Below, piece by piece: positions 11,026-33,739 of a stretch of 33,739 nucleotides of DNA; within the stretch, counting starts at the first letter, position 1, and the number at the start of each line of letters is the position of its first letter. Under the pieces are notes generated by a model. That model was not told the DNA's origin, searched no databases, and was given only the letters and a program-made list of their open reading frames with translations. A program made the translations under genes and the position numbers. Location: positions 1 to 33,739 of the IMG/VR virus record IMGVR_UViG_3300032163_000067, one strand, 5' to 3'. Source of the stretch: a virus.

Positions 11026-11243
11026 ATATGCTTCCAGGTTTTGCGATTAACAATACACATTATAGCATATTGACTTATATTATATTCTATTGCTAATTGT
11101 CTTTGGGTATATTTTTTTGTAGAATATCTTATGGCACCTTTTCCTGCAATCCATTCTTTAGTCAAGGATTTTACTCTTCCTTGATTTGAGACCTCATATA
11201 AACCTTCGTAACCTTCAATTTCCTTCCAAATTTCGCCTTCCAT
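11022..11243 (-). CDS. Miniature NUMOD4-HTH protein, remnant of an HNH homing endonuclease
   Basis: The product has 73 residues. Residues 4-27 (WKEIEGYEGLYEVSNQGRVK) form a textbook NUMOD4 motif, the N-terminal DNA-binding piece of many HNH homing endonucleases. Residues 46-73 (YTQRQLAIEYNISQYAIMCI, then NRKTWKHI) form the C-terminal helix-turn-helix usual in the same enzymes. The whole catalytic HNH segment between them is missing, so nuclease activity is not expected. It lies on the opposite strand between protease and scaffold genes and probably marks an old homing insertion. It is either decayed by internal deletion or kept as a small DNA-binding protein. Confidence 0.7.
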   Translation of the reverse strand: MEGEIWKEIEGYEGLYEVSNQGRVKSLTKEWIAGKGAIRYSTKKYTQRQLAIEYNISQYAIMCIVNRKTWKHI

Positions 11244-16105: not shown

Positions 16106-16606
16106 ATGAAAAATAATAATACGAACTTTAAACAAAATGGGAAACTATCTAGTTCTCCTATTTTAGGATTTTACTCATTGAGTGACTTTGTAAACACATT
16201 TTTCTGTCCAGCAAGTGGAAAAGTAATAACTATAACCAGTATTCTCGGAGGTATATCTTCTATGATAACAGGTTATTTATATTACGACGCCGGCGCTATA
16301 TTCTTCTTGTTGGGACTTCTCGCAGTAGATGGTGTTACCGGAGTAGTTAATGCAATCAAATCTAAAACTTTCTCTTCTACTCGTATGCCAAGGATTTTAC
16401 TTACTATGGTATCAATGTTCATAGTACTTTCTTTGGCAACCAATATGGCAAAGTATTCTCCTGAACTCAATTTCATTCCAGGCGTTTGCTACACTTCATT
16501 CTCTGTAATTACAGCAGTAAGTATATTAGAGAACTTAAAAGCACTTGGTATTGTTTCACAAGGCATTCTGGATTTATTCAAGAGTAAGAGCGAGGCGAAT
16601 AAGTAA
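16106..16606 (+). CDS. Phage holin (TcdE/Cph1-like)
   Basis: The product has 166 residues with about four hydrophobic segments (near residues 38-58, 62-82, 93-114 and 122-142). LAVDGVTGVVNAIKSKTFSS is the D-x-x-T-G-V-x-x-A-x-x-x-K motif typical of the holin family that includes phage Cph1 and TcdE, and ILENLKALGI near the end is also typical. Holins time lysis by permeabilising the inner membrane. It is the last gene of the late block and converges on the leftward operon 50 nt downstream. No endolysin gene is recognisable beside it or elsewhere. Confidence 0.78.
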   Translation: MKNNNTNFKQNGKLSSSPILGFYSLSDFVNTFFCPASGKVITITSILGGISSMITGYLYYDAGAIFFLLGLLAVDGVTGVVNAIKSKTFSSTRMPRILLTMVSMFIVLSLATNMAKYSPELNFIPGVCYTSFSVITAVSILENLKALGIVSQGILDLFKSKSEANK

Positions 16607-18731: not shown

Positions 18732-20024
18732 TTATTTATTGTTGTTACGCAAAGATAGTTCTTTTTCAAATTCTGAACAAATATGTTCCCAGTATTTTTT
18801 CACTGTATTGTATGCAAGGCCACTTTGCCTAGTAAATGCCTTTTTGCTTATTATTACTGAGCAATCACTATTCTGTAATATTTCAATTGTATGACTTATT
18901 TTTTCCTTTGTTTTAGTACGGTGCAGTTCAGCAAGGGCGATAGGCGTTAATTTCTGTTTTTCTCCCTTCTTGTATTTTACATTATAACCCCACCATATTT
19001 TACGATTATGTTCGACGTAGTTTTTGTCCTTGTTTTTTGTTTTTGCCGGTTTGGTATAAAAATCTGTTTTGGTCCAAACAAAATCTATTGTGCTCCTGAC
19101 TTCTGATTTCGACATATCGACTTCAAAAAAAGAGTCTGCAAAGTATGTCATATGATGGCTTAGGGTGACCTTATCAATATCAGAGTATATTCCTTTTAAG
19201 TTAAATCCGAATACCTTAAGCGCATTGCCTCGACTACCTATTTTTATACTTTTGCGTTTGTATGGAATGTTGGCCTTGAGATATGTCATACCCTCTTCTA
19301 TTATCTTGTATTTTTTTACTTGGTCAACTTCAATAAGCAAATTAGCTTGGTTATAATCTAGCCACAATTCTGGTTGAGTTACTCCGGAATGAGGTGGGGT
19401 ATCAAACCTCTCCCTAATATGAGGGAAAGATACAGTATTAGGGTATGGATTGACACCCCCTTTAAATTCGGTTAGTTTTGAGGCATTGAACGGTAAAGCT
19501 TCAAAATTAATATAAATTGCAGGGTCAAGACTTACATAAGTAAGATTGTGAGGGTATGCTACCTTAGGGTCATATAGGCTGTCTAAACCTAATTCCTGCA
19601 TTATAAGCTTGTATTCAGCATTAAAATTAGAAATGGTCATTCCATCCACCCGGAGTATTATATGAGTTCCTGAGCCTCCTGGTGAGGTATATTGAGCTAT
19701 AATATGAGGTCTTGCTTTGATTAATTGGGCTTCCGATATTTGTTTATCAAAGTCGACGAATACATAGCCGGTGAGAGATTGTATATCAGCCTTAAGGCGT
19801 CCATCTTGTGAATGCAAGCAAATGGCTGGCAGCAATGTTGCTTTGGCTTGTTTATATAATTGGTCCTTACGGTCAAGTCCTCTTACATAAGATATATCAT
19901 CTAATAGACGGGGATATGTTTTATTACTTTCTTTTATAAGCTGTAGCCAATAAGGAAGTTCGATTCTATAATCTATTTCTGCAATTGAATCAGCACATTT
20001 GTACACACATAATTTACCATCCAT
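18732..20024 (-). CDS. BT4734/VirE-N-like primase-type replication protein with C-terminal HTH
   Basis: The product has 430 residues. Residues about 85-130 hold LTGYVFVDFDKQISEAQ and QYTSPGGSGTHIILRVDG. The D-x-D pair (Asp91, Asp93) followed by S-P-x-G-x-G-x-x is the signature of the BT4734-like/VirE N-terminal domain, a primase-like (AEP) fold common in Bacteroidetes mobile elements. The middle is unassigned. The end (SKKAFTRQSGLAYNTVKKYW) is a likely HTH. It is the only recognisable replication gene and heads the leftward operon, so it probably primes or initiates phage replication. An alternative is a regulator that keeps only the fold. Confidence 0.72.
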   Translation of the reverse strand: MDGKLCVYKCADSIAEIDYRIELPYWLQLIKESNKTYPRLLDDISYVRGLDRKDQLYKQAKATLLPAICLHSQDGRLKADIQSLTGYVFVDFDKQISEAQLIKARPHIIAQYTSPGGSGTHIILRVDGMTISNFNAEYKLIMQELGLDSLYDPKVAYPHNLTYVSLDPAIYINFEALPFNASKLTEFKGGVNPYPNTVSFPHIRERFDTPPHSGVTQPELWLDYNQANLLIEVDQVKKYKIIEEGMTYLKANIPYKRKSIKIGSRGNALKVFGFNLKGIYSDIDKVTLSHHMTYFADSFFEVDMSKSEVRSTIDFVWTKTDFYTKPAKTKNKDKNYVEHNRKIWWGYNVKYKKGEKQKLTPIALAELHRTKTKEKISHTIEILQNSDCSVIISKKAFTRQSGLAYNTVKKYWEHICSEFEKELSLRNNNK

Positions 20025-20275: not shown

Positions 20276-20947
20276 ATGACCATTCAACAAGAACTAGCCT
20301 TTGTACAGACACTGAAGGCCAATGCCGGCACCGATGCAGTTAAGAACAAATTCAGCCGCATCATTAAGAGCCTCACTGCTTATGACCGGTTAATCAATGG
20401 AAAGGCAGAAGATGTCGACAAGAAGATTAAAGGAGAGAAATGGAAGAGCATCAACCATCCGTATTGGAAAGCCTATTATTCAGCATCTAATCTTGGTAGA
20501 ATAAAAGACAAAAGGACCGGCAAACTAAGAAAGCCCATCCTGAATAAAATAAATGGGTTCCTCCAGGTAATGCTTATTGATGGACAAAAGACGCAGCTCT
20601 TTAGATTAGCAAGATTGGTGGGCCAAACTTGGCTTCCAATAGACAACTCTGATGATAGATGCATTAGATATAAGAACGGTAAATCATTGGATAACCGAGC
20701 CTGCAACCTTTTCTGGGACTCATCCGGCGGCCGCATAGAGTTAAGGGGCCCAGCCATTTGTAATGAAGTAAAGCTTCTGCACAAGCAAGGTATGAAGTTA
20801 AAAGATATCGCCGTTAAAACCGGCCTATCATATTATTCAGCGCTATATGTGTTATACAATAAGAAGCGTAAGAGAGCAACCGGCAAACCCAAAGAAAGAT
20901 TCAACTTTAATAAAGGTCATCAGAATGGGCCATACGAAGCAAGATGA
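20276..20947 (+). CDS. NUMOD4-HNH-like DNA-binding protein with degenerate nuclease motif
   Basis: The product has 223 residues. After an N-terminal helical extension (1-50) comes a NUMOD4-like motif (WKSINHPYWKAYYSASNLGR), then the HNH-type core LFRLARLVGQTWLPIDNSDD followed by RYKNGKSLDNRACNLFW. In active family members the equivalent positions read HRLVA and V-N-H-x-(N/D)-G; here both catalytic His are replaced (Phe and Arg/Tyr). A C-terminal HTH follows (MKLKDIAVKTGLSYYSALYV). Loss of the His with retention of the fold suggests a domesticated DNA-binding protein. It is the first rightward gene and may regulate that operon. Its stop overlaps the next start (ATGA). Confidence 0.65.
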   Translation: MTIQQELAFVQTLKANAGTDAVKNKFSRIIKSLTAYDRLINGKAEDVDKKIKGEKWKSINHPYWKAYYSASNLGRIKDKRTGKLRKPILNKINGFLQVMLIDGQKTQLFRLARLVGQTWLPIDNSDDRCIRYKNGKSLDNRACNLFWDSSGGRIELRGPAICNEVKLLHKQGMKLKDIAVKTGLSYYSALYVLYNKKRKRATGKPKERFNFNKGHQNGPYEAR

Positions 20948-21243
20948 CCTTCGATGAAACATATCAGTTCCTAATAGATTCAGGCTACAACTTAGAGGCT
21001 GACATCTGCGTAGATAATAACCAGATGATATATTATCGTATGCGTAAAGACGACTGCCGCATACAGAGAATGATTCCAACAACCAGCATTATGGAACTGC
21101 AGCCCGATATTATCTTTGAAGTGTTGAAGCAGGAATTACATTCTATGGCCCGGGAGCTTGACCAACTAGTATTTCGGCGTCGGAATGTATATCAAAGGAA
21201 AGTGATAATAGAAAAAGTAACATCCGAATACAAAACAATATAA
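20944..21243 (+). CDS. Unknown protein, 99 aa
   Basis: ATG 20944 overlaps the previous stop by 4 nt (ATGA), indicating coupled translation. The product is mixed helix/strand: TFDETYQFLIDSGYNLEADI, then NQMIYYRMRKDD, then a long helix (IIFEVLKQELHSMARELDQL) and a basic C-terminus. No family is recognised. Confidence 0.55.
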   Translation: MTFDETYQFLIDSGYNLEADICVDNNQMIYYRMRKDDCRIQRMIPTTSIMELQPDIIFEVLKQELHSMARELDQLVFRRRNVYQRKVIIEKVTSEYKTI

Positions 21244-21244
21244 T

Positions 21245-21256
21245 AACAGCCGTCCG
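21245..21256 (+). repeat. ACA(T/G)CCG leader motif 1
   Basis: AACAGCCGTCCG abuts the ATG at 21257. It is one of eight related motifs in the rightward operon, seven of them just upstream of start codons. Confidence 0.65.
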
Positions 21257-21778
21257 ATGGATAATAAAATTAAACAAGTGGCAGAACTTCTGCGAAAGGA
21301 ATTATTGGTAGGTATTATCACCGGAACCGATTCTTTTGTACTGATTTCTGCAATAGAAAGCATCAATGCCTCCAAAATAAGAACAGCCAACATACAACAA
21401 GATTCAGTAACGGCTATTTTTAAACCGGAATCATATGACGAATTTGTACTAAACAATGAAATACGACCCGAATGGATTTCACATCTAAAAGCTGCTGATG
21501 GAGAGGCAATCATAATTTGTAAGACCAATTCTTTAATATATAATATAATCACTGAATATGAAAAGTCTTATGGTATACCTGTGCTCTTATGCGCCAAACT
21601 AAATAACAAACATCCGACCAAACATACGGCACCGGTAAGCACAGAAGACACAGAGAAATTTATAGAATATAACCGAATAGAATCATTCGTTTCTTTTGCC
21701 AACAACATAATTGATATAGAACTGGGCCCACAAATAGGCAGTGGCGGAGAATATCATCCAAACGGCAAAATAAATTAA
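21257..21778 (+). CDS. Unknown protein, 173 aa
   Basis: The N-terminal helix (MDNKIKQVAELLRKELLVGI) is followed by TDSFVLISAIESINASKIRT, TAIFKPESYDEFVLNNEI and AADGEAIIICKTNSLIYNII. The alternation of helix and hydrophobic strand suggests a small alpha/beta fold. The C-terminus is Gly-rich. No catalytic motif or family is recognised. The gene is preceded directly by a leader motif (21245-21256) and lies in the rightward operon, so an early or middle role is inferred. Confidence 0.55.
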   Translation: MDNKIKQVAELLRKELLVGIITGTDSFVLISAIESINASKIRTANIQQDSVTAIFKPESYDEFVLNNEIRPEWISHLKAADGEAIIICKTNSLIYNIITEYEKSYGIPVLLCAKLNNKHPTKHTAPVSTEDTEKFIEYNRIESFVSFANNIIDIELGPQIGSGGEYHPNGKIN

Positions 21779-21841
21779 CGTCCGAAGTACCGAAAACAGA
21801 AATTCCGACTACTTATATAAAAGAATAACAGAACATCCTAT

Positions 21842-21853
21842 AGCCGACATCCG
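21842..21853 (+). repeat. ACA(T/G)CCG leader motif 2
   Basis: AGCCGACATCCG lies 2 nt before ATG 21856. The 77-nt gap upstream also has looser CCGA/CATCC pieces (around 21779-21795 and 21833). Confidence 0.65.
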
Positions 21854-21855
21854 GA

Positions 21856-22419
21856 ATGCCAACCAAACGACCCTTTCAATTCTTCGAAACCCAGCAACCC
21901 CTGGAAGATATGCTTCAATTAGGTCTAGTAGATATACTTCACACTTCTACTCTTAATAAGAAAAGGGCATCCAGATATGCAGAGTCCCTAAGAGAATGGT
22001 TCCGCTCAGGAAGAAATACTATGGAATGGTTTTATGAATTAAACACATTAGTAAATGGTAGGCCCGCAAGAAGCATATCCTCCGATAATTTCCTTCTACA
22101 AGGCATATATAATATAATACATCCGTCGGTTATTATTAAGAAACTATACTCAGAAACAAAAACCGAAAATCAGCCGTATATCAAACTAGCAATTACCCGT
22201 AAAGAAGACTATAAACCAGATGGCCGGAAGTTATCTAAACTAAAGACGGTATATCAATATTATTCAATCAAAGGAGGTTATATAAGAGAATGGGAAAATG
22301 TAACTGAAGCAGCAATTGGACTAGAAATACCTCGCTCCAATATCAGCCTTTGTCTTAATGGATTCAATAAATCAGCAGGCGGGTATTATTTTACATATCA
22401 AAAACTTATCATAGAATGA
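21856..22419 (+). CDS. Protein with C-terminal NUMOD1-like DNA-binding motif
   Basis: The product has 187 residues. The N-terminal 130 residues are mostly helical (EDMLQLGLVDILHTSTLNKK; SLREWFRSGRNTMEWFYELN) and match no family I know. The C-terminal 55 (YQYYSIKGGYIREWENVTEA, NISLCLNGFNKSAGGYYFTY) follow the NUMOD1 pattern found at the ends of homing endonucleases, yet no GIY-YIG, HNH or LAGLIDADG catalytic motif is visible. It may be a DNA-binding protein built from a homing-enzyme module. It overlaps the next gene by 4 nt (ATGA). Confidence 0.6.
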   Translation: MPTKRPFQFFETQQPLEDMLQLGLVDILHTSTLNKKRASRYAESLREWFRSGRNTMEWFYELNTLVNGRPARSISSDNFLLQGIYNIIHPSVIIKKLYSETKTENQPYIKLAITRKEDYKPDGRKLSKLKTVYQYYSIKGGYIREWENVTEAAIGLEIPRSNISLCLNGFNKSAGGYYFTYQKLIIE

Positions 22420-23015
22420 AAAAGTATAAGACATATAGTCTAAGGGAACAACAGTTTTTGCTTTTCTCCACAAAAGAAAGACTCCTTTTACAGGACTTCT
22501 GGAGAAGCAGAGGTGAGGATTTTACATTTCAGAGGATAAGTAAAGTCGAAGATAAAGAAAAGTACGATGCCATTATCTGTTCCGGAAATACAGAACATCC
22601 CATTACTTATTTAACAGAAGTAAAAGTAAGAACAATTCCGTCAACCAAATATAAAAGCGGTAGCAAAATAATGAAGCATAAATGGGACTTCTTGACTCAG
22701 TCTTGTATTGCCGCTGCCGAAGAAGGACAAATGATGCAGCCTCTATATATAGTATTTTATACAGATAATAAAGTAGCTGTCTTTAATTTGTGTAATGTAG
22801 ACCCAAAGTGGGTAACTAGATACGGCCACATTAACAGCAGCACAACTTCAGCTAATCCTATTGTGCCGCAGCAGGAATTTGATATTCCTTTGTCAGCAGC
22901 AACTTGGTATGATGCCGGCTGTATTCTAAATAAAGATTATAATCAATTGGCAATAGAAGTATGCAATTTTATGTTCGCTGGCAATAGTTTTGCTTGGAAT
23001 CGATTGGCTGAATAA
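22416..23015 (+). CDS. Putative PD-(D/E)XK-fold nuclease
   Basis: The product has 199 residues. The segment KEKYDAIICSG with Asp51, followed 17 residues later by YLTEVKVR with Glu68-Val-Lys70, forms the D-x(n)-E-x-K core of the restriction-endonuclease-like superfamily. The strand-helix context fits: hydrophobic DAII strand, hairpin, EVKV strand, then a long helix (HKWDFLTQSCIAAAEEGQMM) and strands LYIVFY and KVAVFNL. Substrate is unknown. In a phage early operon, recombination, host DNA degradation or replication-intermediate processing are candidates. It starts within the previous gene (ATGA). Confidence 0.6.
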   Translation: MKKYKTYSLREQQFLLFSTKERLLLQDFWRSRGEDFTFQRISKVEDKEKYDAIICSGNTEHPITYLTEVKVRTIPSTKYKSGSKIMKHKWDFLTQSCIAAAEEGQMMQPLYIVFYTDNKVAVFNLCNVDPKWVTRYGHINSSTTSANPIVPQQEFDIPLSAATWYDAGCILNKDYNQLAIEVCNFMFAGNSFAWNRLAE

Positions 23016-23028
23016 CAGAAAGGAATCA

Positions 23029-23385
23029 ATGAATAAACAACAAAAACATCCTGATGAGATTATACTTTGGAGAGCCTATGGTAAAAACCTTCTTATTCTA
23101 CAAAGGAAGATTGCTGAGGCCGTAGAAAAAGAACTGTATGAAGAAGCGGCAATGAATAAAGATATTCAGTTAGAAGATTACCATATGCTGATTCAAATTA
23201 TGAAACAGAAAGGATTATATGTATCCGGTCAAACAGAATCTTATATGCAAGGCCTTGAACAAAAGGCAATAAAAATTATAGAGAATGTACGGAAAGAAGA
23301 GAAAAAATTAGAAATTGATAAAATAAAGAACAAAAAACCCAATTCAGGACCAAGAACCGGCACTGAAAATGATGAAGACATTTAA
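23029..23385 (+). CDS. Unknown helical protein, 118 aa
   Basis: The start is taken at ATG 23029 (MNKQQKHPDEIILWRAYGKN) rather than an upstream TTG inside the nuclease gene. The body is helical and charged (LQRKIAEAVEKELYEEAAMN; LEQKAIKIIENVRKEEKKLE), with a low-complexity polar tail (KKPNSGPRTGTENDED). A coiled coil is likely. No family is recognised. The next start lies inside its 3' end. Confidence 0.5.
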   Translation: MNKQQKHPDEIILWRAYGKNLLILQRKIAEAVEKELYEEAAMNKDIQLEDYHMLIQIMKQKGLYVSGQTESYMQGLEQKAIKIIENVRKEEKKLEIDKIKNKKPNSGPRTGTENDEDI

Positions 23386-23599
23386 CCAACATAGACCCAC
23401 TGTATATCTTCATTTAAATGGAGTAGGACAACTATTTCAAGGAGATACCGTAGCACTTGAAAGAGAATATCCAAATAAGAAATTCTTTGTAGGTGAACCG
23501 GCATTTGAATTGATTCTGGATAACCATACTCGTTTCGATTATCAGTTTCAAACCACCAGAATGGTCCTAATAGAAAAACTAAATCCCAAATTACAATAA
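23369..23599 (+). CDS. Unknown protein, 76 aa
   Basis: Tandem ATGs at 23369 and 23372 allow either start; both overlap the upstream gene by 14-17 nt in another frame. The product is beta-rich (RPTVYLHLNGVGQLFQGDTV; FFVGEPAFELILDNHTRFDY; TTRMVLIEKL), perhaps a small barrel. No family is recognised. Confidence 0.5.
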   Translation: MMKTFNQHRPTVYLHLNGVGQLFQGDTVALEREYPNKKFFVGEPAFELILDNHTRFDYQFQTTRMVLIEKLNPKLQ

Positions 23600-23621
23600 C
23601 AGACTACAAACCAAACATCAT

Positions 23622-23636
23622 AACATCCGACATCCG
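23622..23636 (+). repeat. ACA(T/G)CCG leader motif 3
   Basis: AACATCCGACATCCG, two tandem units, lies 4 nt before ATG 23641. Confidence 0.7.
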
Positions 23637-23640
23637 TACA

Positions 23641-23883
23641 ATGAATAACGAACTTCAGGCAAATATAGAACTAACCAAGCTCAGGATTTTTGTTAAACAA
23701 CTAATTAATAACCATCCTGATAAAGATGCAGCAGTTTGGTTGGATAATATACGCCCATCCAATAAAGTTCTATTGGATTTTACACCTGTATCAGAATTGC
23801 AGCTGGTATATGCAATTATTGAACAGTATTTCAATCAAGCACCAGATACCTTAATAAAAGATTTAAACACAACCATACTTTAA
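23641..23883 (+). CDS. Unknown helical protein, 80 aa
   Basis: The product is largely helical: ELQANIELTKLRIFVKQLIN, then DAAVWLDNIRPSNKV, then SELQLVYAIIEQYFNQ and a short acidic-to-hydrophobic end. No family is recognised. A copy of GTAAAATCC (as GGATTTTAC at 23775) lies inside it, encoding part of LLDFTP. It sits between two leader motifs in the rightward operon. Confidence 0.5.
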   Translation: MNNELQANIELTKLRIFVKQLINNHPDKDAAVWLDNIRPSNKVLLDFTPVSELQLVYAIIEQYFNQAPDTLIKDLNTTIL

Positions 23884-23895
23884 AATTAACAATAT

Positions 23896-23919
23896 AACAG
23901 CCGACAGCCGACAGCCGAC
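23896..23919 (+). repeat. ACA(T/G)CCG leader motif 4, three tandem units
   Basis: ACAGCCG is repeated three times head to tail, ending 2 nt before ATG 23922 of the sigma-like gene. It is the longest run of the set. Confidence 0.75.
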
Positions 23920-23921
23920 TT

Positions 23922-24578
23922 ATGACAGAATTCAGGCCTATAATGCAATTTCCTTATACTTTTAGTGCTCAATCTTGGCAAGACATTGTCAGTCATATGG
24001 CCCGTAATAGGATAGTAGAGGCTATTGTCCGAAATATTGTTGAAAAGAAACGTCCGAATGATAATTATGCCTCTGATTTATGCCAGGATATATACGTTTC
24101 TTTATTGGACAAACCAAAGGCTAAGCAGCGGATGTTAAAAGAAATATATTGCAAAGGAGATATGAACTTCTATATCACCCGAATAGTTTTGACACAGGTC
24201 AAATCTAAAAACTCAGAAACCTGGCGCCGATACCGTAAACAAACCCAAAAGAACTTCCTAACTGAATCTGATTATGAACAGCAGCCGCATCTCTTCGAAG
24301 AACTACTAATGTCTGTATATGAACATCCGGACGATAATATAATAGATAAATTCCCCGGAACAGTGCAGGACCTTATGCTTTCGGCCTTAACAGCCACAAC
24401 AACCGATTGGTACAATATAGAACTAACCAAAAAACATCTCATTGAAGGTCAGACCCTATCTTCTATAAGCAAACAAACTCAAATACCTTTATCTTCTGTT
24501 TTTAAGACCATATCAACCGTAAAATCCAAAATGAGGACTTGGATTGAACAATACATAGAAGCCAACATCCAAATCTAA
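23922..24578 (+). CDS. Sigma-70-family-like transcription factor
   Basis: The product has 218 residues. Residues about 48-106 (YASDLCQDIYVSLLDKP, GDMNFYITRIVLTQVKSKNS, WRRYRKQ) resemble sigma region 2, with the acidic D-L-x-Q-D-x-Y-x-x-L helix and an aromatic/basic helix. Residues about 165-210 (LIEGQTLSSISKQTQIPLSS followed by VFKTISTVKSKMR) form a region-4 HTH with the usual G-x-x-x-x-x-I-x-x-x-x-x-I-P-x-x-x-V spacing. It would bind host RNA polymerase core and redirect it. The conserved RCATTTA motifs at late genes are candidate targets. An ECF-like or divergent phage sigma is the best reading. Confidence 0.7.
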   Translation: MTEFRPIMQFPYTFSAQSWQDIVSHMARNRIVEAIVRNIVEKKRPNDNYASDLCQDIYVSLLDKPKAKQRMLKEIYCKGDMNFYITRIVLTQVKSKNSETWRRYRKQTQKNFLTESDYEQQPHLFEELLMSVYEHPDDNIIDKFPGTVQDLMLSALTATTTDWYNIELTKKHLIEGQTLSSISKQTQIPLSSVFKTISTVKSKMRTWIEQYIEANIQI

Positions 24579-24590
24579 CATCCGACATCG
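24577..24590 (+). repeat. ACA(T/G)CCG leader motif 5
   Basis: AACATCCGACATCG overlaps the last codon/stop of the sigma-like gene and ends 3 nt before ATG 24594. Confidence 0.65.
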
Positions 24591-24593
24591 AAA

Positions 24594-24905
24594 ATGAACT
24601 TTGATACGCAACTATATCTAAACATCAGGGACTATTCTATTCCAGCAGCAGCCGTTGGTTGGACATTGGCTATTTTCGAACCAATTCAAACCATCATCTC
24701 TAAATTACCAAGACATCCAGTTTTTGCATTGATACAGAAGATTACTAGTTGTCCTCGCTGCTTATCGTTTTGGCTTTGTGGAGTCTGGATGCTGACTTCG
24801 GCATCAACATCCGAATTACAATTTATATTGCCTTGTATGGCTGTTTCTGCCATCCTGGGCTCATTATTAGACCAATACATAAACAACACAAACATAAGAT
24901 TATGA
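24594..24905 (+). CDS. Small membrane protein with CxxCxxFW motif (DUF1360-like)
   Basis: The product has 103 residues with hydrophobic segments near residues 15-35 (SIPAAAVGWTLAIF), 55-75 and 77-95 (LQFILPCMAVSAILGSLL). ITSCPRCLSFWLCGVW contains the C-x-x-C-x-S-F-W motif of the small phage/bacterial membrane family DUF1360. In phages its role is not settled; an inner-membrane location is likely. The following gene starts inside its stop codon (ATGA). Confidence 0.6.
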   Translation: MNFDTQLYLNIRDYSIPAAAVGWTLAIFEPIQTIISKLPRHPVFALIQKITSCPRCLSFWLCGVWMLTSASTSELQFILPCMAVSAILGSLLDQYINNTNIRL

Positions 24906-25489
24906 AAGAATACAAAATTTACGGATTAAGGCTTAAAAACCAAATTCCTGGAACCGAAGAGTTCCGGTACATAGGATGTACCACTACAAGTCTCAAAAAA
25001 AGGCTTATAGTACATATTGCAGATAAAAGATGCAATTTTAACGGAAAATATGATTGGATTAATGAAAATAAAAGTAATATAGAAATATTTCTTATTGAGG
25101 AATTCGAACACAATAAACAATATGCAAGCCATAGAGAAGTATATTGGATAGAATTTTATCGTAATCTTGGTAATAAACTTTTTAATGGAACTAATGGAGG
25201 ACTTGGTGGCCAATTAGGTATTAATATGACAGATAATTTAAAAAATACCAATAGGATATATATGCTTAATAATAATCCAATGAAAAATCCGGAAATATCC
25301 AATAAAGTAAAGCTACATAATTCTATTCCGGTTCTGCAATTAGATTTATCAGGTAATTTACTTAGAACATTCAATAGTGGAAGAGAAGCTGCCCGCTTTC
25401 TTGGAAGTAACTCCTTTCAGGGGTCAATAGGAAAATGTATTAACGGTAAACTTAAAACAGCATACGGATTTATTTGGAAAAAAGCATAA
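24902..25489 (+). CDS. GIY-YIG homing endonuclease with C-terminal NUMOD1
   Basis: The start is taken at ATG 24902, overlapping the preceding stop, which gives 195 residues; a longer upstream frame is just read-through of another gene. Residues 3-38 hold YKIYGLRLK, FRYIGCTTTSLKKRLIVH with the two Tyr-Gly motifs, Arg34 and His38. REVYWIEFYR supplies the catalytic Glu, and NGTNGG the conserved Asn. The C-terminus (VLQLDLSGNLLRTFNSGREA ... GKLKTAYGFIWKK) is a NUMOD1 DNA-binding motif. All key residues appear intact, so it is likely active and mobile. Its target is probably a nearby phage locus. Confidence 0.8.
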   Translation: MKEYKIYGLRLKNQIPGTEEFRYIGCTTTSLKKRLIVHIADKRCNFNGKYDWINENKSNIEIFLIEEFEHNKQYASHREVYWIEFYRNLGNKLFNGTNGGLGGQLGINMTDNLKNTNRIYMLNNNPMKNPEISNKVKLHNSIPVLQLDLSGNLLRTFNSGREAARFLGSNSFQGSIGKCINGKLKTAYGFIWKKA

Positions 25490-25491
25490 TT

Positions 25492-25980
25492 ATGACAGTA
25501 TACACACCACAAGAAATAGATAGGATTTTAATCCTAAGTACTCGCAGAAGAGCTACGCCAGAGGATACGGCTTTTATATCCGAAATGGGTAGTAAAATTG
25601 GTAATCATACCTGTGTCACTTGCCCTAGCTCTGTACGACAAGCATTCGGAAGAGTTGTGGCTCAAGCCCATAAAGATAAGGCAGAATTAGATTCATTAAT
25701 TCAGAAACAAACAGATGAAATGGAAGTCCGGCTAACAGCCGAGGCTGACCAGACGGCCGCCTCCGATAAAACAACGCTGGATTTTACGATTGAAGCTGAT
25801 TGTATTCATTGTCTTTATAAACAGCCGGTGTCTGATTTGAGTAATGAACAAAAAATACGCCTTATTAATGAGGTGGCCATTAGATGCGGAGTAACCATTA
25901 AAAATTGTATTTCTTGTGATAGTGATTTAATTGAAGCCCAAAAAATATTGCAAGAACATATGCTAAATTCTGGTACATAA
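25492..25980 (+). CDS. CxxC-rich, probably zinc-binding protein, 162 aa
   Basis: The start is taken at ATG 25492, 2 nt after the homing gene stop. Three CxxC pairs are visible: HTCVTCPSSVRQAF, DCIHCLYKQ and NCISCDSD. They could bind two zinc ions, with one pair shared or a His as ligand. The remainder is helical (AQAHKDKAELDSLIQKQTDE; NEQKIRLINEVAIRCGV). No family is recognised. Position suggests it closes the rightward block before the terminase genes. GTAAAATCC (complement) at 25789 encodes its TLDFTI segment. Confidence 0.55.
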   Translation: MTVYTPQEIDRILILSTRRRATPEDTAFISEMGSKIGNHTCVTCPSSVRQAFGRVVAQAHKDKAELDSLIQKQTDEMEVRLTAEADQTAASDKTTLDFTIEADCIHCLYKQPVSDLSNEQKIRLINEVAIRCGVTIKNCISCDSDLIEAQKILQEHMLNSGT

Positions 25981-25994
25981 TGTTAATTAACTGA

Positions 25995-26008
25995 AACATC
26001 CGCATCCG
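25995..26008 (+). repeat. ACA(T/G)CCG leader motif 6
   Basis: AACATCCGCATCCG lies 22 nt before the ATG of a 43-codon ORF at 26031. Confidence 0.55.
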
Positions 26009-26030
26009 CATTGGCAGGGAGTGGTAAATA

Positions 26031-26162
26031 ATGACTATTACAAAAAGTCAGTTAATTGAGGTAAAAGTAGACAACTTTAACAGAAAGTGTGAAGGGTTGA
26101 GGTGTAGGATTTTACAAATCGGAAAAAGGCCTCTTTTCTTTCCATTTATAAAGGCAAACTAG
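26031..26162 (+). CDS. Possible small basic protein, 43 aa
   Basis: ATG 26031 to TAG 26160-26162 encodes MTITKSQLIEVKVDNFNRKC, then a basic middle and a hydrophobic end (RPLFFPFIKAN). It has a leader motif upstream and sits in the only otherwise empty stretch between the CxxC gene and the HNH gene. Support is weak: length is short, and a GTAAAATCC copy at 26107 lies inside it. Confidence 0.3.
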   Translation: MTITKSQLIEVKVDNFNRKCEGLRCRILQIGKRPLFFPFIKAN

Positions 26163-26194
26163 AACAAAATGAGCCCTAAATCAGTAAAATCCAA

Positions 26195-26213
26195 AACATC
26201 CGCCAGCCGCCAG
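26195..26213 (+). repeat. ACA(T/G)CCG leader motif 7, now separated from any start
   Basis: AACATCCGCCAGCCGCCAG has no rightward start codon directly after it. The next gene on this strand is the small terminase at 26832, beyond the opposite-strand HNH gene. This is what insertion of the HNH gene between leader and terminase would leave. Confidence 0.55.
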
Positions 26214-26236
26214 TTCTTATTTAAGACCTCTAACTT

Positions 26237-26791
26237 TTAATTAAAATGTTCAAAAGTAAAATCCTCGCCCTTGCTTCCAGATTTGCACCAACGAAATATA
26301 TTATGCTTAGGAATTCCTGTAAGTCTTTCAGCTTCATAGGCAGAGCCATACTTAATTCCTTTAACAACAAACCACCCACTAAACCTAGGGTGTTTTTTAC
26401 CTTGCTTCTTAAGAGACATAAGTTTCTTAGATTCTTCAGACGCTTGTTTACCAAAGTTCCAATGGTCAGCACCGGTGAGGATTTTACGTCCTCTTGCATA
26501 AGACCTTTGTATATTAACTTGATGCGTAACCCACTCAAGATTGCTGTAATGATTATTCAATTTATTTTCATCCAAATGGTCAATCTCCCAATCTTCCGTA
26601 AAATCCTGCGGCTTCTCCACAAAATATTCTCCAACCAATCTATGAGCAAACTCCCATTTGCCATCAAGAAAATACAATTGATAACCAATGGTGCTTATTT
26701 GGCCCTTAAGAAATCGGTTCTTCTTTTCGCTGAACAGGCGACCATCTTCATACAATATGTACTGACTGGATTTTACTTTGATAGAATTCAT
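26237..26791 (-). CDS. HNH homing endonuclease with NUMOD3-like motif
   Basis: The product has 184 residues. HNH core: WEFAHRLVGEYF (His50), then DWEIDHLDENKLNNHYSNLE with Asp71-His72 and the N-x-x-N-L-E-W end. A NUMOD3-like piece follows (NFGKQASEESKKLMSLKKQG, then KKHP), and a C-terminal HTH-like segment (GSAYEAERLTGIPKHNIFRW). Key residues are intact, so it is probably active. It lies on the strand opposite to its neighbours, immediately before the small terminase, a classic location for phage homing genes. It carries several GTAAAATCC copies in its coding sequence. Confidence 0.8.
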   Translation of the reverse strand: MNSIKVKSSQYILYEDGRLFSEKKNRFLKGQISTIGYQLYFLDGKWEFAHRLVGEYFVEKPQDFTEDWEIDHLDENKLNNHYSNLEWVTHQVNIQRSYARGRKILTGADHWNFGKQASEESKKLMSLKKQGKKHPRFSGWFVVKGIKYGSAYEAERLTGIPKHNIFRWCKSGSKGEDFTFEHFN

Positions 26792-26831
26792 ATGTGTAAT
26801 ATAAATAGTAAATTAATTTAAGTAAATAGTT

Positions 26832-27536
26832 ATGGAACCATATAGCAATGCTAATAGCCGGGAAGAAGAAATAATAAATAAGATACGGATGATGGAAGAA
26901 CAAGAGCGTATATCTAAAGAGAACTTCTGGTTGACAGCCGGCACTCACAGTAACAGCTCTGACCTAAAGCCTAAGCAGACCAGGAAAAGAAGAAAGCAGG
27001 AAATAGAGATAGCCATATCAGATAGTTGGTCTTCACTTAATGACAGAGCAAGGAAGTTTGCACAACATTATGTTCAGTCAAATCCTAAGTCCGGAATGGC
27101 ATCAGCCATATATGCCGGCTATTCAGGCAACTCTAATAGCATCCTATCTAGTACGGCCTCTCATCTTCTTGCAGACCCTAGGGTAATCGGCTATTGTAAA
27201 TTCCTAATGAGCAGAACAGCCCTGAAGCTTAACTACACCAAAGAAGGGCAGCTACAGAAGCTTGGGAAGTTTATTGATATGGCTGCAGAGAAGAAGGACC
27301 TATATGCGGCTAGCAAGCTCATAGACCTTGAGAATAAGTTGTTAGGATTTTACCAGCCGACGACTCAGATTAATATGGCTGCTACAGGAGATATTAAAGT
27401 GACTTTTGGGTCTGAAGCAACTACTAATGACAGTACTAGTTCCGAACATCCTATGGATATAGAGGGTAGGACGGCTGCAGGGTTTCCGTTACCTGATGAA
27501 CAAAATAATTTTGAAGAAAAAAAAGATGAGGAGTAG
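26832..27536 (+). CDS. Terminase small subunit
   Basis: The product has 234 residues. The N-terminal 75 are charged and helical with a basic patch (KPKQTRKRRKQE). The core SLNDRARKFAQHYVQSNPKS, then AIYAGYSGNSNSILSSTASH and LLADPRVIGYCKFLMSR, is the standard small-terminase HTH layout (grow-F-x-x-x-Y, A-x-x-A-G-Y, A-x-x-L-L-x-x-P-x-V). A helical oligomerisation region follows (LQKLGKFIDMAAEKKDLYAA). It recognises phage DNA and recruits the large subunit for packaging. The stop lies inside a cluster of GTAAAATCC motifs, making these candidates for its binding site. Confidence 0.8.
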   Translation: MEPYSNANSREEEIINKIRMMEEQERISKENFWLTAGTHSNSSDLKPKQTRKRRKQEIEIAISDSWSSLNDRARKFAQHYVQSNPKSGMASAIYAGYSGNSNSILSSTASHLLADPRVIGYCKFLMSRTALKLNYTKEGQLQKLGKFIDMAAEKKDLYAASKLIDLENKLLGFYQPTTQINMAATGDIKVTFGSEATTNDSTSSEHPMDIEGRTAAGFPLPDEQNNFEEKKDEE

Positions 27537-27655
27537 GATTTTACAAGTCAGTTGGATTTTACGTAAAAAAGAAAAAACAAAAATTTCAATTCTGGGGTCA
27601 TAAATTTTATTCTTACAAAGGCGAACAGTAAAATCCAGCTAATATTAAACAACGA
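27537..27655. promoter_or_regulatory. Terminase small-large intergenic region with three GTAAAATCC copies
   Basis: Within 119 nt it holds GGATTTTAC (starting at 27536 on the small-terminase stop), GGATTTTAC at 27554 and GTAAAATCC at 27628. The second copy extends into the 12-bp palindrome TTTTACGTAAAA (27557-27568). Convergent repeats around an AT-rich core between the two terminase genes fit a packaging or replication site. Confidence 0.5.
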
Positions 27656-28915
27656 ATGCAAATCCAGCTCTATACTCCACACTCATCTCAAATCCCTGTA
27701 CATAATGCTTGTCAATACTTCGGCAAAGACGCACCCTTCTTCATATTTTGTTCTGCCGGCCGTCAATCAGGCAAAAGTTTAGCCAGTTTAAATCAGATGA
27801 GTCGCTGGCTTTTGGAGAATAAATCTACCCGGGGCGTATGGATTTCACCAACAGAAAGTCAGGCAGTAAAAGCCTTCCGGGAGATGGGCAATGCCTTATC
27901 AAAAGCCGGTCTTATAAAATCCAAACGCTCTTCAGCCGGAGCCCTAGAATTGGTCCTAATCAACAAGTCAATCTGTCAATTCAAGTCTGCCTCTGCGGGC
28001 GACGGACTTAGGGGCAATACGTATGAATGGTTCTGCATTGATGAAGCCGCTTTTATAAAAGAAGATATTTGGTCAGAAGTAATTATTCCAATGGCCACAA
28101 CCAAAGGGCGTAAAATCCTGGTGACCTCAACCCCGAGAGGGGCCAATAACTGGTTCGCACAATGGTTCAATAAAGCATCGGACCCAAAAAGTAAAATCCA
28201 AAGTTTCAGATATACATCTCTTGATAATCCACATTCAAATAAAGAGCTGATTCAACTTTTTAAGAACAGTCTTTCTCCGGCACAATACCAGCAGGAAATG
28301 GAGGCCCGGTTTATTGATGGTGCCAATCCTTTTGATGGTAGTTCTGGGTGTTTCAATGATAATATCCTGCCGCTTACTGGTCCGCAGCCTGGGCGTAAGT
28401 ATTATGCCGGAGTAGACGTAGCAATGAGTTCGGATTTTACGGTCATATGTATCATAGACGACCAAGGCCAGGTATGTTATATTGACCGGTTCAATAATAT
28501 TCCAGCACCAGCAATTAGGGAGAGGTTGTCAAAAACAATGAGGCTATTCAACGTAAAAACCTCAATTATAGAATCGAATAATCAAGGTGCATTTCTTATA
28601 AGTGAAATGAAAAGTCAGGGCATTAGGAACATACAGGAATTCCTAACCACCAACCAAAGCAAGTCAGAATTAATTGATGGGCTTATTTCGGCGTTTGCAA
28701 ATAAGCAGATAAGTATACCTGGATGCTCTACTGGCAATTTCAGGATTTTGCGGGACGAATTGGATGCATTCTCACTTTCGTATACAAAAACCGGCAAAGC
28801 AAAATACGAAGCTTCATATGGTAATGATGACGTTGTTATGGCATTAAATTTCGCACTACGCTGTAAAAACCAATATGCATATATTTCACATAAACCAACA
28901 TTTTATATCGGCTGA
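27656..28915 (+). CDS. Terminase large subunit
   Basis: The product has 419 residues, normal for a compact TerL. Walker A-like GRQSGKS lies at 35-41, Walker B WFCIDEAAF with Asp129-Glu130, and coupling motif VTSTPRG at 156-162. The nuclease domain has YYAGVDVAMSSDFTV with Asp254, IIESN with Glu306 and GNDDVVMALNFA with Asp391/392, a complete RNase H-like triad. It cuts and translocates genomic DNA into proheads at the portal. It follows the small subunit by 119 nt. Which packaging class it belongs to (pac or cos) cannot be decided by eye. Confidence 0.93.
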   Translation: MQIQLYTPHSSQIPVHNACQYFGKDAPFFIFCSAGRQSGKSLASLNQMSRWLLENKSTRGVWISPTESQAVKAFREMGNALSKAGLIKSKRSSAGALELVLINKSICQFKSASAGDGLRGNTYEWFCIDEAAFIKEDIWSEVIIPMATTKGRKILVTSTPRGANNWFAQWFNKASDPKSKIQSFRYTSLDNPHSNKELIQLFKNSLSPAQYQQEMEARFIDGANPFDGSSGCFNDNILPLTGPQPGRKYYAGVDVAMSSDFTVICIIDDQGQVCYIDRFNNIPAPAIRERLSKTMRLFNVKTSIIESNNQGAFLISEMKSQGIRNIQEFLTTNQSKSELIDGLISAFANKQISIPGCSTGNFRILRDELDAFSLSYTKTGKAKYEASYGNDDVVMALNFALRCKNQYAYISHKPTFYIG

Positions 28916-28955
28916 CCCGGCTGTTACCTATAAAATAAACAAATACAAACAACAT

Positions 28956-28963
28956 AACATCCG
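28956..28963 (+). repeat. ACA(T/G)CCG leader motif 8
   Basis: AACATCCG directly abuts ATG 28964, the most downstream copy. Confidence 0.6.
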
Positions 28964-29734
28964 ATGAAAACAATCAAAATTAACCAAGACAAATACTCTT
29001 TGCCTGAGAACTGGACAGAAGTTAAACTCAGACAGCTACAGGAGCTGTGTATTATGGTTGAGAAGAATAAAAAAGTAGCGGAAGTTGATTCTGTTACACA
29101 ACTTAATGCTGCTGTAGAAATACTTTCTATTATAACAGAGTGTCCAAGAGAGCTATTAATGAAGGCGGATGTAAAATCCATTACAAACCTATGTAATGAA
29201 ATAGGATGGACATCAGATTTCAGTGAAGAGACTTTAGGTCTTAAAAAAAAGAATGATAAAGGAGAGCTTATACCAGTTGATTTAGAGAGTCTTGAATTTG
29301 TTATAAACGGTCAAAGTTTTGTTTTCGACCATTCTATGAACATAACTTTTGGGCAAATGATTGATATAGAACAAGTAACTAATTCGACTGTAATACCTTG
29401 GGATAATGCTCATTTAATATTGGCTATATTAATGAGGCCTGCCAAAAAACGCTCAAAAACAACAAGTAAAGTATTATCTCTTGCATTAACAGAAAAGTTT
29501 AAAAACGATTCGGCTATAAAATCTTACGCTATAAAATCAGCATCTGAATATAAGATAGAAAAATATGATTGGGATTCTGTTGAATCAAGAGGGCAGTTAT
29601 TTAAAGACTATGTTTCTGTAGCAGACGCCTTTAAGGTAACTTTTTTTTTGGCATTTTTAAAGAAAGAATTCACAGAACGTACTCTGGCCTCTTTGGCGGA
29701 CAAGGAGTTGATGAACCTTCAGCGCAAAGATTAG
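28964..29734 (+). CDS. Tail assembly chaperone-like protein (0-frame product)
   Basis: The 0-frame product has 256 residues. N-terminal IKINQDKYSLPENWTEVKLR is a beta-hairpin of the type that opens tail assembly chaperones, followed by helical segments (LRQLQELCIMVEKNK; LNAAVEILSIITECPRELL). The middle holds EFVINGQSFVFDHSMNITFG. Near its 3' end are a run of nine T and the heptamer TTTAAAG, after which the -1 frame is open for 82 more codons with no start codon of its own. That is the G/GT arrangement of siphophage chaperones. In most phages this gene is next to the tape measure; here it is 11.7 kb away across the circle. Confidence 0.65.
   Translation: MKTIKINQDKYSLPENWTEVKLRQLQELCIMVEKNKKVAEVDSVTQLNAAVEILSIITECPRELLMKADVKSITNLCNEIGWTSDFSEETLGLKKKNDKGELIPVDLESLEFVINGQSFVFDHSMNITFGQMIDIEQVTNSTVIPWDNAHLILAILMRPAKKRSKTTSKVLSLALTEKFKNDSAIKSYAIKSASEYKIEKYDWDSVESRGQLFKDYVSVADAFKVTFFLAFLKKEFTERTLASLADKELMNLQRKD
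29641..29662 (+). promoter_or_regulatory. -1 ribosomal frameshift signal
   Basis: T9-G (29641-29650) in the 0 frame reads ACT TTT TTT TTG, allowing a slip on T-TTT-TTT or T-TTT-TTG. Just downstream, T-TTA-AAG (29656-29662) is a perfect X-XXY-YYZ heptamer in the 0 frame. A slip at either site moves to the same -1 frame. Confidence 0.65.
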
Positions 29735-29907
29735 CCTATGGAAAGAAGTGGGGATGGTGGCCATTAGTTTCTAAAATTATTGGTGATGACCTAACGAAAG
29801 TAGATGCAGTATTAGAGTTGCCGATGGCCCTGGTTCTTAATGACCTGAGCTGCAAAAAAGAGATGGCAGATATAGAGCGGATAGAAAACGATAAAACTGA
29901 CCGGTAA
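29662..29907 (+). CDS. Frameshift extension of the tail assembly chaperone
   Basis: After a -1 slip at 29662 the frame encodes 81 residues to TAA 29905-29907, giving a fusion of about 314 residues from 28964. It contains EPSAQRLAYGKKWGWWPLVS, then KIIGDDLTKVDAVLELPMAL, then a helix. The Y-G-x-x-W-G-W-W and D-D-x-x-x-x-x-x-x-L-x-x-P motifs are of the kind found in the downstream cistron of Bacteroidetes tail genes. The frame contains no ATG, GTG or TTG between its upstream stop (29632-29634) and the conserved part, so independent initiation is unlikely. Confidence 0.65.
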   Translation, partial: ERIHRTYSGLFGGQGVDEPSAQRLAYGKKWGWWPLVSKIIGDDLTKVDAVLELPMALVLNDLSCKKEMADIERIENDKTDR

Positions 29908-29963
29908 GTGACAGATAACGGATGTTTGTATTTGATGTTGGCAATAAAAATGAACCAAACGGG

Positions 29964-30014: not shown

Positions 30015-33000
30015 ATGAGTCAATGGTTGCAAGTATCGCTAAATCAGGCAATAGAATCCTTAAGTAATTTTGCCACTGCTCATAAGCAGATTCATTCATT
30101 CAGATATGGAACAAATAAGGAACAGGAACTTTCTGAGAGCACAGTATATCCGGAAATGGCTGTTTATCCTACATCTGTTAATGTTGGTGAGCATACAATG
30201 GAGTATACGCTCAGAATTGAGTTATATGATTTAGAAAGAAATGATGTTGCCAATACACAAGACGTTCAATCTGACCTTCTTCAAGTTTGTGTTGATGCTG
30301 TAAATTTCCTTAGGCGCAATACCGGATATTACTGGAACGTTAAATCCAGCACAACTGCTACTCCTTTTACTCAAAGAAACACATCAGTTCTTGCTGGATG
30401 GTCTTTTAATGTAACACTAGTTGCAATTAATAATGGCAATATATGTGACATACCGGGAGTTCAACCAACTGAACCAATTGATTTGGATTTAACAGACGGA
30501 GCGAGTGGATGTTTTACTTTCCCTTGTTTGAGCGCTACGTCTATATCTGCTGGTAGTTTTTTTTCTGGTTCAACACCGCTTTCTGATATAATAATAAACC
30601 TTACAACCGGAATTACTTCCACACTTCAATCTGGATTCTCAGGCTGGACGGCCTCTACAGGTGTCAATTCAATAATAGCAAATAATGGAAGCGGTAACGT
30701 AGCCTCTGGTAATTTTGCCATTGCCGGTGGTACTGGGAATACTGCTTCCGGTCTGACGTCTTTTATTGGAGGTGGAATTTTAAATATAACAAATGGTGCT
30801 CGTTCATTCATTGGTGGAGGACAATCAAACGTAGCTACGGCAAATAATTCAGCTGTACTTACTGGACTTAATAATAAAGCTTCAGGACTTCAATCAGTTG
30901 TAGTTGGAGGTTCAGGAAGTTTAGCTTCAGGAAACAACTCAGTGATTGGAGGTGGATTTTTAAATTCAGCTACAACAACTTATTCGACAGTTTCTGGTGG
31001 AAGAAATAATGTAGCATCTGGAACTAATTCTTTTATTGGAGGCGGAAATGCCAATTCGACAACAACAACAAATGCAACTGTAGTAGGCGGAACATTAAAC
31101 AGGGCTTCTGGAATTGCCTCATTTATAGGGGGTGGAAATGCTAATTCAGCAACTACAACTTATTCCACCATAGGTGGCGGACATTTAAATAAAGCTTCTG
31201 GCTTGCGTTCTTTTGTCGGTGGTGGACAAAATAATACAGCAAGAACATCATATTCAATTGTAGTTGGCGGACAAAATAATATAGCATCTGGAAAAACTTC
31301 TTTTGTCGGCGGAGGAAACTACAATACGGCTTCAGGACACTACTCTTCTATTGTTGGGGGTTCTTACAATGTTGCTTCAGGAGCATATTCATTTATAGGA
31401 GGTGGGGGAGGAGTTAGTCCATATATAAGGCATTATGCTTCTGGAAAATATTCTACAATTGGTGGTGGTGCAGCGCATACTTCTTCTGGGTATCACTCTA
31501 CAATAGCAGGTGGTACTAATAATATAGCATCTGGTAATGGCTCTGCTATTTTAGGAGGTTCAAGCAATGAGGCGAATAATTTATACTCTTCTGTTTTAGG
31601 AGGTAAAGATAATCATAATTCCGGAGATTATTCATCAATATTGGCCGGAAGAGGCAATATAATAACAGGAAATCGTTCAGCAATTGGAGCAGGGCAGAAT
31701 TTGGTTAATTCCTTCGATGATACATTTTTAATACAGAATTTAACAGCCAATACAATATCGGGAACAACTTTTTATTCTGGTAACACAGAATTATCTTCCT
31801 TATTCGCACTACAAGGTACACAACCAAGAATTTCCCAAGGAAATAATATACAAACAGGCGGAACAATTTCTAATCCAATAATCAGCACAGTAGATTCTCC
31901 ACAATTCAATAACATAACTTCTACAGGCAATTCAATTTTTAATACTTTATCAGCTTCAACACTTTCTGCAAAAACAATATGGACAAGTACCATATCAGGA
32001 ATGTCTCCAATTAATATTGAAAAAGTTTACATACAAAATGGCTCTCTCAGTGCTACAGGATTTAATTACCAAGACGGAAATCAATCATTAAGTAAAATAT
32101 TAACTTCTGATGCCAGTGGTAATGCAACTTGGCAAGTTTCACAAGGAAATGGAATATTGACATTTATGCTATATTCTGGAGCTTCTGATATTGCCACTTA
32201 TAATCAGATGCCGTCCTTGTCTAATTATATTGCTGGTACACTTACGACTTCTGCATATACTGTAACGCCTGCACCAACAGTTATAGGGAATTTTGCAACA
32301 AATGTTGGGTTCCCAAATAGAACAATTATACCTGTTGGTTCTTTTCTTGGGCATTATGAAACTCAAAAGGGAGCAGGTTCAAATAATTATTATACATATT
32401 TTGAGGTTTATAAAAGAAATACATTAGGGAGTGAAACACTTCTTGTAACCTCAGACAATACGTCACAAACTTCCGTTAATACTGTTGTTCAAAATACAAC
32501 TACTGCATTTATATCCAGTGCTATTACTATTAGTGCGACAGACAGAATTGTAATGAAAATATATGCAGTGATGATAACGTCAAGTGCAAATATTACTTTA
32601 CGCTTTGATAATACGACAAATGCTCGTTTGGAATTGCCTTCACAAAGTGCGGATGCCACCAACTTTATCCCATATACAGGAGCTACGTCTGACGTAAATC
32701 TAGGTTCGCACAATTTAACAAATATTAATTCCTTTTCAGCAACTTCTGTATTTGCAAATTCAATAACTGGTGTTACTATTTCTGGGGGAACAATATATTC
32801 AGGTAGCACAGAGCTTGGTGTTGTGATGCAAAGATTTGTTCCCACAAGTTCTTCAACAAATATTGCCAATGGAACGAACACATATACCGGAGGAACATCC
32901 TCTGTCCCATCAATAAATGTATCAGGAGGTACGTTTAATAATATAAATGCAACAGGCACTTCTGTATTTAACACACTTAATGTTGCAACAATGAGTGGTA

Positions 33001-33739
33001 CAACCGGTTCATTTGCAAGTTTTTCAGCAACATCATTAAGTGGAACAACACTTACTCTTGGTTTGTCTGGAGTAGGCGGAAGTCAATTTATTAATGCAAC
33101 ACTTGGCGCAGAACTTGCTCCTGCATTATCTGGAGCAACAACTGTAAATTGGACTTTTGGTGCACCTTATACTACTCCGCTTGCTGGGACAATAAATAAA
33201 TCAACAGATGGAATTACTACCATCACACCAACTGCTGCATCAACTATAGTAATAGGAACAACTTATAAAGTCGTAATTGTTGTATCTGCTATTACTGTAG
33301 CTACTGGATTTTATTACACTTTGGGAAACGTACTTGGAACCATTATAACATCAGCGGGTACTTATACAGATTATATAACTGCAACATCAACTGGGAATTT
33401 AATTATAACTCCATTTCAAACTGGAACTAGATGGATAATTTCTTCAATAAGCATAAAGGCTGTGACATCTGGAACAGGTGCTGAGACAATAGAAGGAAAG
33501 TTAACTGTCGGAGCAGGCGCTTCTTTATATGGAAAAATAGGAATAGGAATGTCCAATCCTTTGTATCCGCTTCAAATAAATGTACAAGGAACAACACAGG
33601 GAGCAGGCACAGGCTTGGTTATTGGAAATCCAGATATTCTTTCCAATATAAAACAAACCGTTAAAATCGGAGTAGATAATACTTTAAATTGTGGATGGCT
33701 TTCTGTTGATGCCGGAAATAACGGAGTTCAGCCTTTTAA
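30015..33739 (+). CDS. Giant tail fibre protein, N-terminal part (continues at 1-1418)
   Basis: The frame is open from ATG 30015 to the window end and joins 1-1418 in frame, giving about 1,665 residues. Residues 1-150 (ATAHKQIHSFRYGTNKEQEL, VQSDLLQVCVDAVNFLRRNT, PFTQRNTSVLAGWSFNVTLV) look like a tail-terminator-like domain normally found alone in Bacteroidetes phages. A linker (FFSGSTPLSDIIINL) leads to about 21 beta-roll units of about 15 residues (TYSTVSGGRNNVASG type) over residues about 213-565. Shaft modules follow with FYSGNTELSSLF and IYSGSTELGVVM linkers, a beta-sandwich-like insert near 32300-32660, and GKIGIGMSNPLYPLQI repeats. It is the longest gene of the phage and likely the main adhesion fibre. 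Confidence 0.88.
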   Translation, partial: MSQWLQVSLNQAIESLSNFATAHKQIHSFRYGTNKEQELSESTVYPEMAVYPTSVNVGEHTMEYTLRIELYDLERNDVANTQDVQSDLLQVCVDAVNFLRRNTGYYWNVKSSTTATPFTQRNTSVLAGWSFNVTLVAINNGNICDIPGVQPTEPIDLDLTDGASGCFTFPCLSATSISAGSFFSGSTPLSDIIINLTTGITSTLQSGFSGWTASTGVNSIIANNGSGNVASGNFAIAGGTGNTASGLTSFIGGGILNITNGARSFIGGGQSNVATANNSAVLTGLNNKASGLQSVVVGGSGSLASGNNSVIGGGFLNSATTTYSTVSGGRNNVASGTNSFIGGGNANSTTTTNATVVGGTLNRASGIASFIGGGNANSATTTYSTIGGGHLNKASGLRSFVGGGQNNTARTSYSIVVGGQNNIASGKTSFVGGGNYNTASGHYSSIVGGSYNVASGAYSFIGGGGGVSPYIRHYASGKYSTIGGGAAHTSSGYHSTIAGGTNNIASGNGSAILGGSSNEANNLYSSVLGGKDNHNSGDYSSILAGRGNIITGNRSAIGAGQNLVNSFDDTFLIQNLTANTISGTTFYSGNTELSSLFALQGTQPRISQGNNIQTGGTISNPIISTVDSPQFNNITSTGNSIFNTLSASTLSAKTIWTSTISGMSPINIEKVYIQNGSLSATGFNYQDGNQSLSKILTSDASGNATWQVSQGNGILTFMLYSGASDIATYNQMPSLSNYIAGTLTTSAYTVTPAPTVIGNFATNVGFPNRTIIPVGSFLGHYETQKGAGSNNYYTYFEVYKRNTLGSETLLVTSDNTSQTSVNTVVQNTTTAFISSAITISATDRIVMKIYAVMITSSANITLRFDNTTNARLELPSQSADATNFIPYTGATSDVNLGSHNLTNINSFSATSVFANSITGVTISGGTIYSGSTELGVVMQRFVPTSSSTNIANGTNTYTGGTSSVPSINVSGGTFNNINATGTSVFNTLNVATMSGTTGSFASFSATSLSGTTLTLGLSGVGGSQFINATLGAELAPALSGATTVNWTFGAPYTTPLAGTINKSTDGITTITPTAASTIVIGTTYKVVIVVSAITVATGFYYTLGNVLGTIITSAGTYTDYITATSTGNLIITPFQTGTRWIISSISIKAVTSGTGAETIEGKLTVGAGASLYGKIGIGMSNPLYPLQINVQGTTQGAGTGLVIGNPDILSNIKQTVKIGVDNTLNCGWLSVDAGNNGVQPF
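33595..33739. repeat. Terminal overlap, right copy (pairs with 1-145)
   Basis: It matches positions 1-145 at 144 of 145 bases; 33646 is A where position 52 is T. See the left copy. Confidence 0.9.

Follow-up and report, generated by a model that had tools for sequence, protein, structure and literature searches.

The window, that is, the whole stretch of DNA that was analysed, is a viral record 33739 bases long. It has 145-bp end repeats at 99% identity, and the genome is therefore probably complete. A repetitive long ORF (positions 30015-33737 and 21-1418, with 90-bp repeats at 30948-31328) continues into the end repeat, which is the expectation if the genome is circular. The portal protein is similar to the portal of Nonlabens phage P12024S, and a BT4734-like domain is encoded in the gene at 18732-20024. 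Together these similarities make a Bacteroidota host likely for this phage. A genome-contig scan found no Bacteroidota relative. Both terminase genes and an HNH endonuclease gene lie within a cluster of copies of a 9-nt word, GTAAAATCC. Four HNH/NUMOD-type genes or gene fragments share the region with the cluster (20276-20947, 21856-22419, 24749-25489 and 26237-26791). The genes and the gap at the center of the region are as follows.

26237-26791, minus strand, HNH endonuclease gene, contains four copies of GTAAAATCC
26832-27536, plus strand, terS, terminase small subunit (phrog_51, 6.8e-10)
27537-27655, terS-terL intergenic gap, counterpart of the dense core in three other phages (G009, L172 and L226, below)
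27656-28915, plus strand, terL, terminase large subunit (phrog_2, 1.5e-41; Terminase_6N)

The copies of GTAAAATCC in the window, with the amino acids that they encode where they are in a reading frame, are:

1677-1685, minus strand, outlier
9901-9909, plus strand, outlier
11166-11174, minus strand, outlier
16166-16174, minus strand, outlier
16392-16400, minus strand, outlier
22517-22525, minus strand, as GEDFTF in ORF 22416-23015
23775-23783, minus strand, as DFT
24519-24527, plus strand, as VKS
25779-25787, minus strand, as DFT
26107-26115, minus strand, intergenic
26184-26192, plus strand, intergenic
26256-26264, plus strand, within HNH gene, DFT
26479-26487, minus strand, within HNH gene, KIL
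26598-26606, plus strand, within HNH gene, DFT
26768-26776, minus strand, within HNH gene, VKS
27345-27353, minus strand, within terS, GFY
27536-27544, minus strand, terS-terL gap
27554-27562, minus strand, terS-terL gap
27628-27636, plus strand, terS-terL gap
28110-28118, plus strand, within terL, KIL
28191-28199, plus strand, within terL, SKI
28432-28440, minus strand, within terL, DFT
29171-29179, plus strand, as VKS

There are 23 exact copies, 9 on the plus strand and 14 on the minus strand. This is one more than the 22 counted in the preliminary description of the sequence, whose estimate of less than one expected copy is borne out (about 0.5). Dinucleotide shuffling gives an expectation of 0.57 copies with a maximum of 3 among 100 shuffles, and the third-order Markov model that was proposed there as a check gives 0.52, with GTAAAATCC as the strongest k-mer of the window. 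Shuffles and Markov models together rule out chance or base composition as the source of the copies. The clustering reported earlier is reproduced, with 18 of the 23 copies at positions 22517-29179 and ten at 26107-27636; 20000 random placements on a 33594-bp circle never reached 18 or ten (null maxima 15 and 9). Outside the cluster, five copies are found where 0.42 would be expected (P = 7e-5), which is again an excess. Single-mismatch neighbours of the word are at background, 0-4 copies each, and all but one of the 23 copies (22) are followed directly by T or A. The copies in two intergenic gaps, at 26098-26120 and 27527-27549, have a longer common context, TGAGGNGTAGGATTTTACAANTC, with 91% identity over 23 nt.

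The window is 96% coding and about 4% noncoding; 18 of the copies are in coding sequence and 5 are intergenic. Coding copies cover all five frame and strand combinations that are free of a TAA stop, i.e., VKS, (G)KIL, GFY, (R)IL and DFT. Positions of the word in TerL are mostly at different alignment columns between phages, two DFT columns being common, which indicates that sites turn over from phage to phage. The differing frames, the presence on both strands and the noncoding copies rule out protein conservation as the cause. This agrees with the preliminary description, which had noted copies in several frames, on both strands, in coding and noncoding sequence and inside the opposite-strand HNH gene, and had argued that conservation of proteins could not explain them. 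Orientation in the four siphophages considered below is 49:28, and is accounted for by codon constraint, as a stop codon in one frame gives an expected ratio of 3:2 (P = 0.56). Between two records of one phage, L172 and L162, there are substitutions in 0 of 108 motif columns and in 24 of 1848 other columns, which are small numbers.

Pair-pattern scans over 2.9 million viral contigs, followed by copy counts, revealed only four other phages in which GTAAAATCC is dense; the scans required two close copies and would thus miss sparser carriers. The four are G005 (212.6 kb, 86 copies vs 3.6 expected), G009 (32.3 kb, 20 copies vs 0.54 expected), L226 (18 copies in 13.1 kb) and the L172 group (16 copies in 6.7 kb). 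L172, L162, L154 and L147 are records of one phage, and several of the motif-phage records are fragments. Many other matches from the scans resemble evenly spaced arrays on one strand (e.g., L151 and L332) and were set aside as protein-repeat artefacts. GTAAAATCC ranks first or second among the 9-mers of the window, G009, L172, L226 and G005. Near-miss words are at background in G009 and L172, and some neighbours show a modest excess in G005, which is A+T-rich.

The window phage, G009, L172 and L226 are siphophages and distant relatives, with TerL proteins that are 33-75% identical and structural genes in common where the records overlap. The similarity of G005 to these phages is limited to homing-endonuclease-like proteins and to a stretch of 82 aa in one short ORF. 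This ORF (135 aa, G005 47023-47430, locus L185) adjoins the dense core of G005 and shows 35% identity over 82 aa to a G009 protein, which is itself related to the window ORF at 10189-11025. The similarity suggests gene exchange between G005 and the otherwise unrelated siphophages. Phage descent alone does not explain where the word is found, as the 396 kb from 35 TerL relatives of the siphophages have 2 copies in total; it is absent from MCP relatives. The TerL tree does not unite the motif phages in a single group (three changes), but branches are long and one origin is possible. Both the motif-less relatives and G005 argue against inheritance within one phage family.

The terS-terL gap is where GTAAAATCC is densest in each of the four siphophages, with 5 copies in 269 bp in L226, 5 in 453 bp in L172, 8 in 884 bp in G009 and 3 in the gap of about 120 bp in the window. 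This placement is what would be found if the small terminase bound the word near the terS-terL junction and started packaging there, i.e., if it were a pac site. Such a role is nevertheless quite improbable. TerS proteins of the motif siphophages are only 19-26% identical to TerS of the window while the 9-mer is invariant, and the 35 TerL relatives are without clusters. G005 has its core, 11 copies within 1.1 kb of noncoding DNA, at 48.9-50.1 kb; TerL of this phage is encoded about 75 kb away, at 125.5 kb. Of the 86 copies in G005, 55 are intergenic though the genome is 86% coding, the orientation is 42:44, and the background outside the core is raised from 44 to 102 kb. The raised background, seen also in the window, makes the distribution ill-suited to a single fixed site.

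The cores of G005, G009, L172 and L226 also have a second word, AAAGTTATNAACA, which resembles a DnaA box in sequence and was picked after inspection of the cores. It is nearly absent elsewhere in those records (core copies out of the total: L226 3/3, L172 3/3, G009 2/2 and G005 2/4). Inverted pairs, e.g., GGATTTTAC-GTAAAATCC, are present in G009 and L226. Iteron/DnaA-box origins are characterised by short sites repeated in noncoding DNA together with DnaA-like boxes, and both the boxes and the inverted pairs favor GTAAAATCC as an origin-binding site. An initiator, either of the host or common to the phages, would bind the word, the cores would be origins and the scattered copies would be secondary sites. 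This is the main rival to a recombination signal, but it is unlikely. The window is without AAAGTTATNAACA boxes, no turning point in GC skew coincides with the cores, and no initiator was found to be common to G005 and the siphophages. Iterons would not be expected within genes or scattered across 58 kb, the range of the copies in G005. They also tend to be longer and degenerate, whereas GTAAAATCC is an exact 9-mer with copies scattered genome-wide.

The same exact word packed in unrelated phages is probably not a chance repeat but a signal read by the DNA-repair machinery of a common host. The reading that we favor, at slightly better than an even chance, is that GTAAAATCC is a Chi-like recombination signal of that host, which is probably a member of the Bacteroidota. 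The reader would be a host helicase-nuclease of the RecBCD/AddAB type, which would recognize the word while degrading DNA from a double-strand end and be switched by it from DNA destruction to RecA loading. Phages without a recombinase of their own would gain from having the word where double-strand ends arise, i.e., near the origin of replication and the packaging cut (in the window, the terS-terL region); the cores would represent these origin/packaging regions. A Chi-like role further predicts an excess of the word in the host chromosome. Among the four roles that had been offered in the preliminary description, a Chi-like signal fits best, packaging is disfavoured, and an iteron-like origin is kept in consideration by the presence of AAAGTTATNAACA in the four other cores.

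Several properties argue for the Chi-like signal. The phages in which the same 9-mer is prominent are not closely related, and near misses are approximately at background, as they are for E. coli Chi, GCTGGTGG, in phage P1. The first 50 kb of P1 have 27 Chi copies vs 4 expected, 15 on the plus and 12 on the minus strand, with few near misses; Chi in P1 and in E. coli phages that lack recombinases is, like GTAAAATCC, an exact short word in strong excess, on both strands and within coding sequence. The first 100 kb of T5 show little Chi excess (6 vs 3.8). Host Chi is over-represented in lambdoid phages that lack recombinases, where it is concentrated between the origin and the packaging site (Bobay et al. 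2013, PMC3784561). The siphophage cores at terS-terL and the noncoding core of G005 may correspond to this placement, the origin/packaging region being putative in the motif phages. ERF, RecT, RecA and YqaJ families have no match in the window, G009 and G005, nor in the L226 record (the result being partial for fragments), and ERF is present in three of seven motif-less relatives and in P12024S. The other four motif-less relatives are also without all four families, so the lack of these families in the motif phages fits a Chi-like role but is no proof of it. Recombinases of other families, or RecBCD inhibitors, may be present in the motif phages.

Other properties do not fit as well. Core density reaches about 19 per kb in L226, far above the 0.2 per kb for Chi in recombinase-lacking phages (PMC3784561). 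Compared with GCTGGTGG of E. coli, GTAAAATCC is a different word, 9 nt in length and A+T-rich, with a far denser core. Polarity is limited to the expected 3:2 ratio, but Chi in P1 is likewise non-polar. Each bacterial lineage has its own exact Chi word, which a phage must match to its host; examples are AGCGG in B. subtilis, GCGCGTG in L. lactis, GAAGCGG in S. aureus and GNTGGTGG in H. influenzae. To our knowledge, Chi words have been determined for few bacteria, all are 5-8 nt and G-rich, and none is established for the Bacteroidota. The 9-nt, A+T-rich GTAAAATCC differs from these words in both respects.

An exact word in unrelated phages would suit any sequence-specific host protein. The word may then serve another host- or phage-specific purpose, such as DNA uptake, nucleoid or partition binding, modification or anti-restriction. 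We regard this as improbable, since it leaves the peak at the terminase genes, or at one noncoding core, unexplained; a literature search found no paper containing GTAAAATCC. Stoperators of cluster A mycobacteriophages are tens of dispersed short repressor sites of 13 bp that lie mainly between genes and follow the direction of transcription. They are similar to GTAAAATCC in that tens of short sites are dispersed through a phage genome, but differ in that the 9-mer is also present in an unrelated phage, and no repressor was found here.

A wider proposal combines the recombination signal with the origin. Here GTAAAATCC would be an undescribed word for a host reader, perhaps the first of Chi type from the Bacteroidota, and part of a convergent composite origin-recombination module, mostly with DnaA-like boxes, that unrelated phages have accumulated separately at an origin/packaging core. 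We hold this tentatively, at somewhat less than an even chance. If the Chi-like role is true, the Chi word of a host can be deduced from phage genomes alone, without culturing the host, and GTAAAATCC would link uncharacterised phages to one host. It would also offer a directly testable example of convergence, in which unrelated phages arrived at a single recombination signal in the origin/packaging region.

Two further words were noticed. A second over-represented word in the window, AACATCCG, has 11 copies (9 on the plus strand), all at 21.2-29.9 kb (21219-29926). Several copies are just upstream of start codons, e.g., at 28956 before the ATG at 28964 and at 24577 before the start at 24594; ACATCCG at 21847 precedes the start at 21856. 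In G005 (loci L183-L193) there are 44 copies of AATGTACTATAC, 43 of them on the plus strand, at 5.8-28.6 kb and 57-92 kb, and this word is possibly promoter-like.
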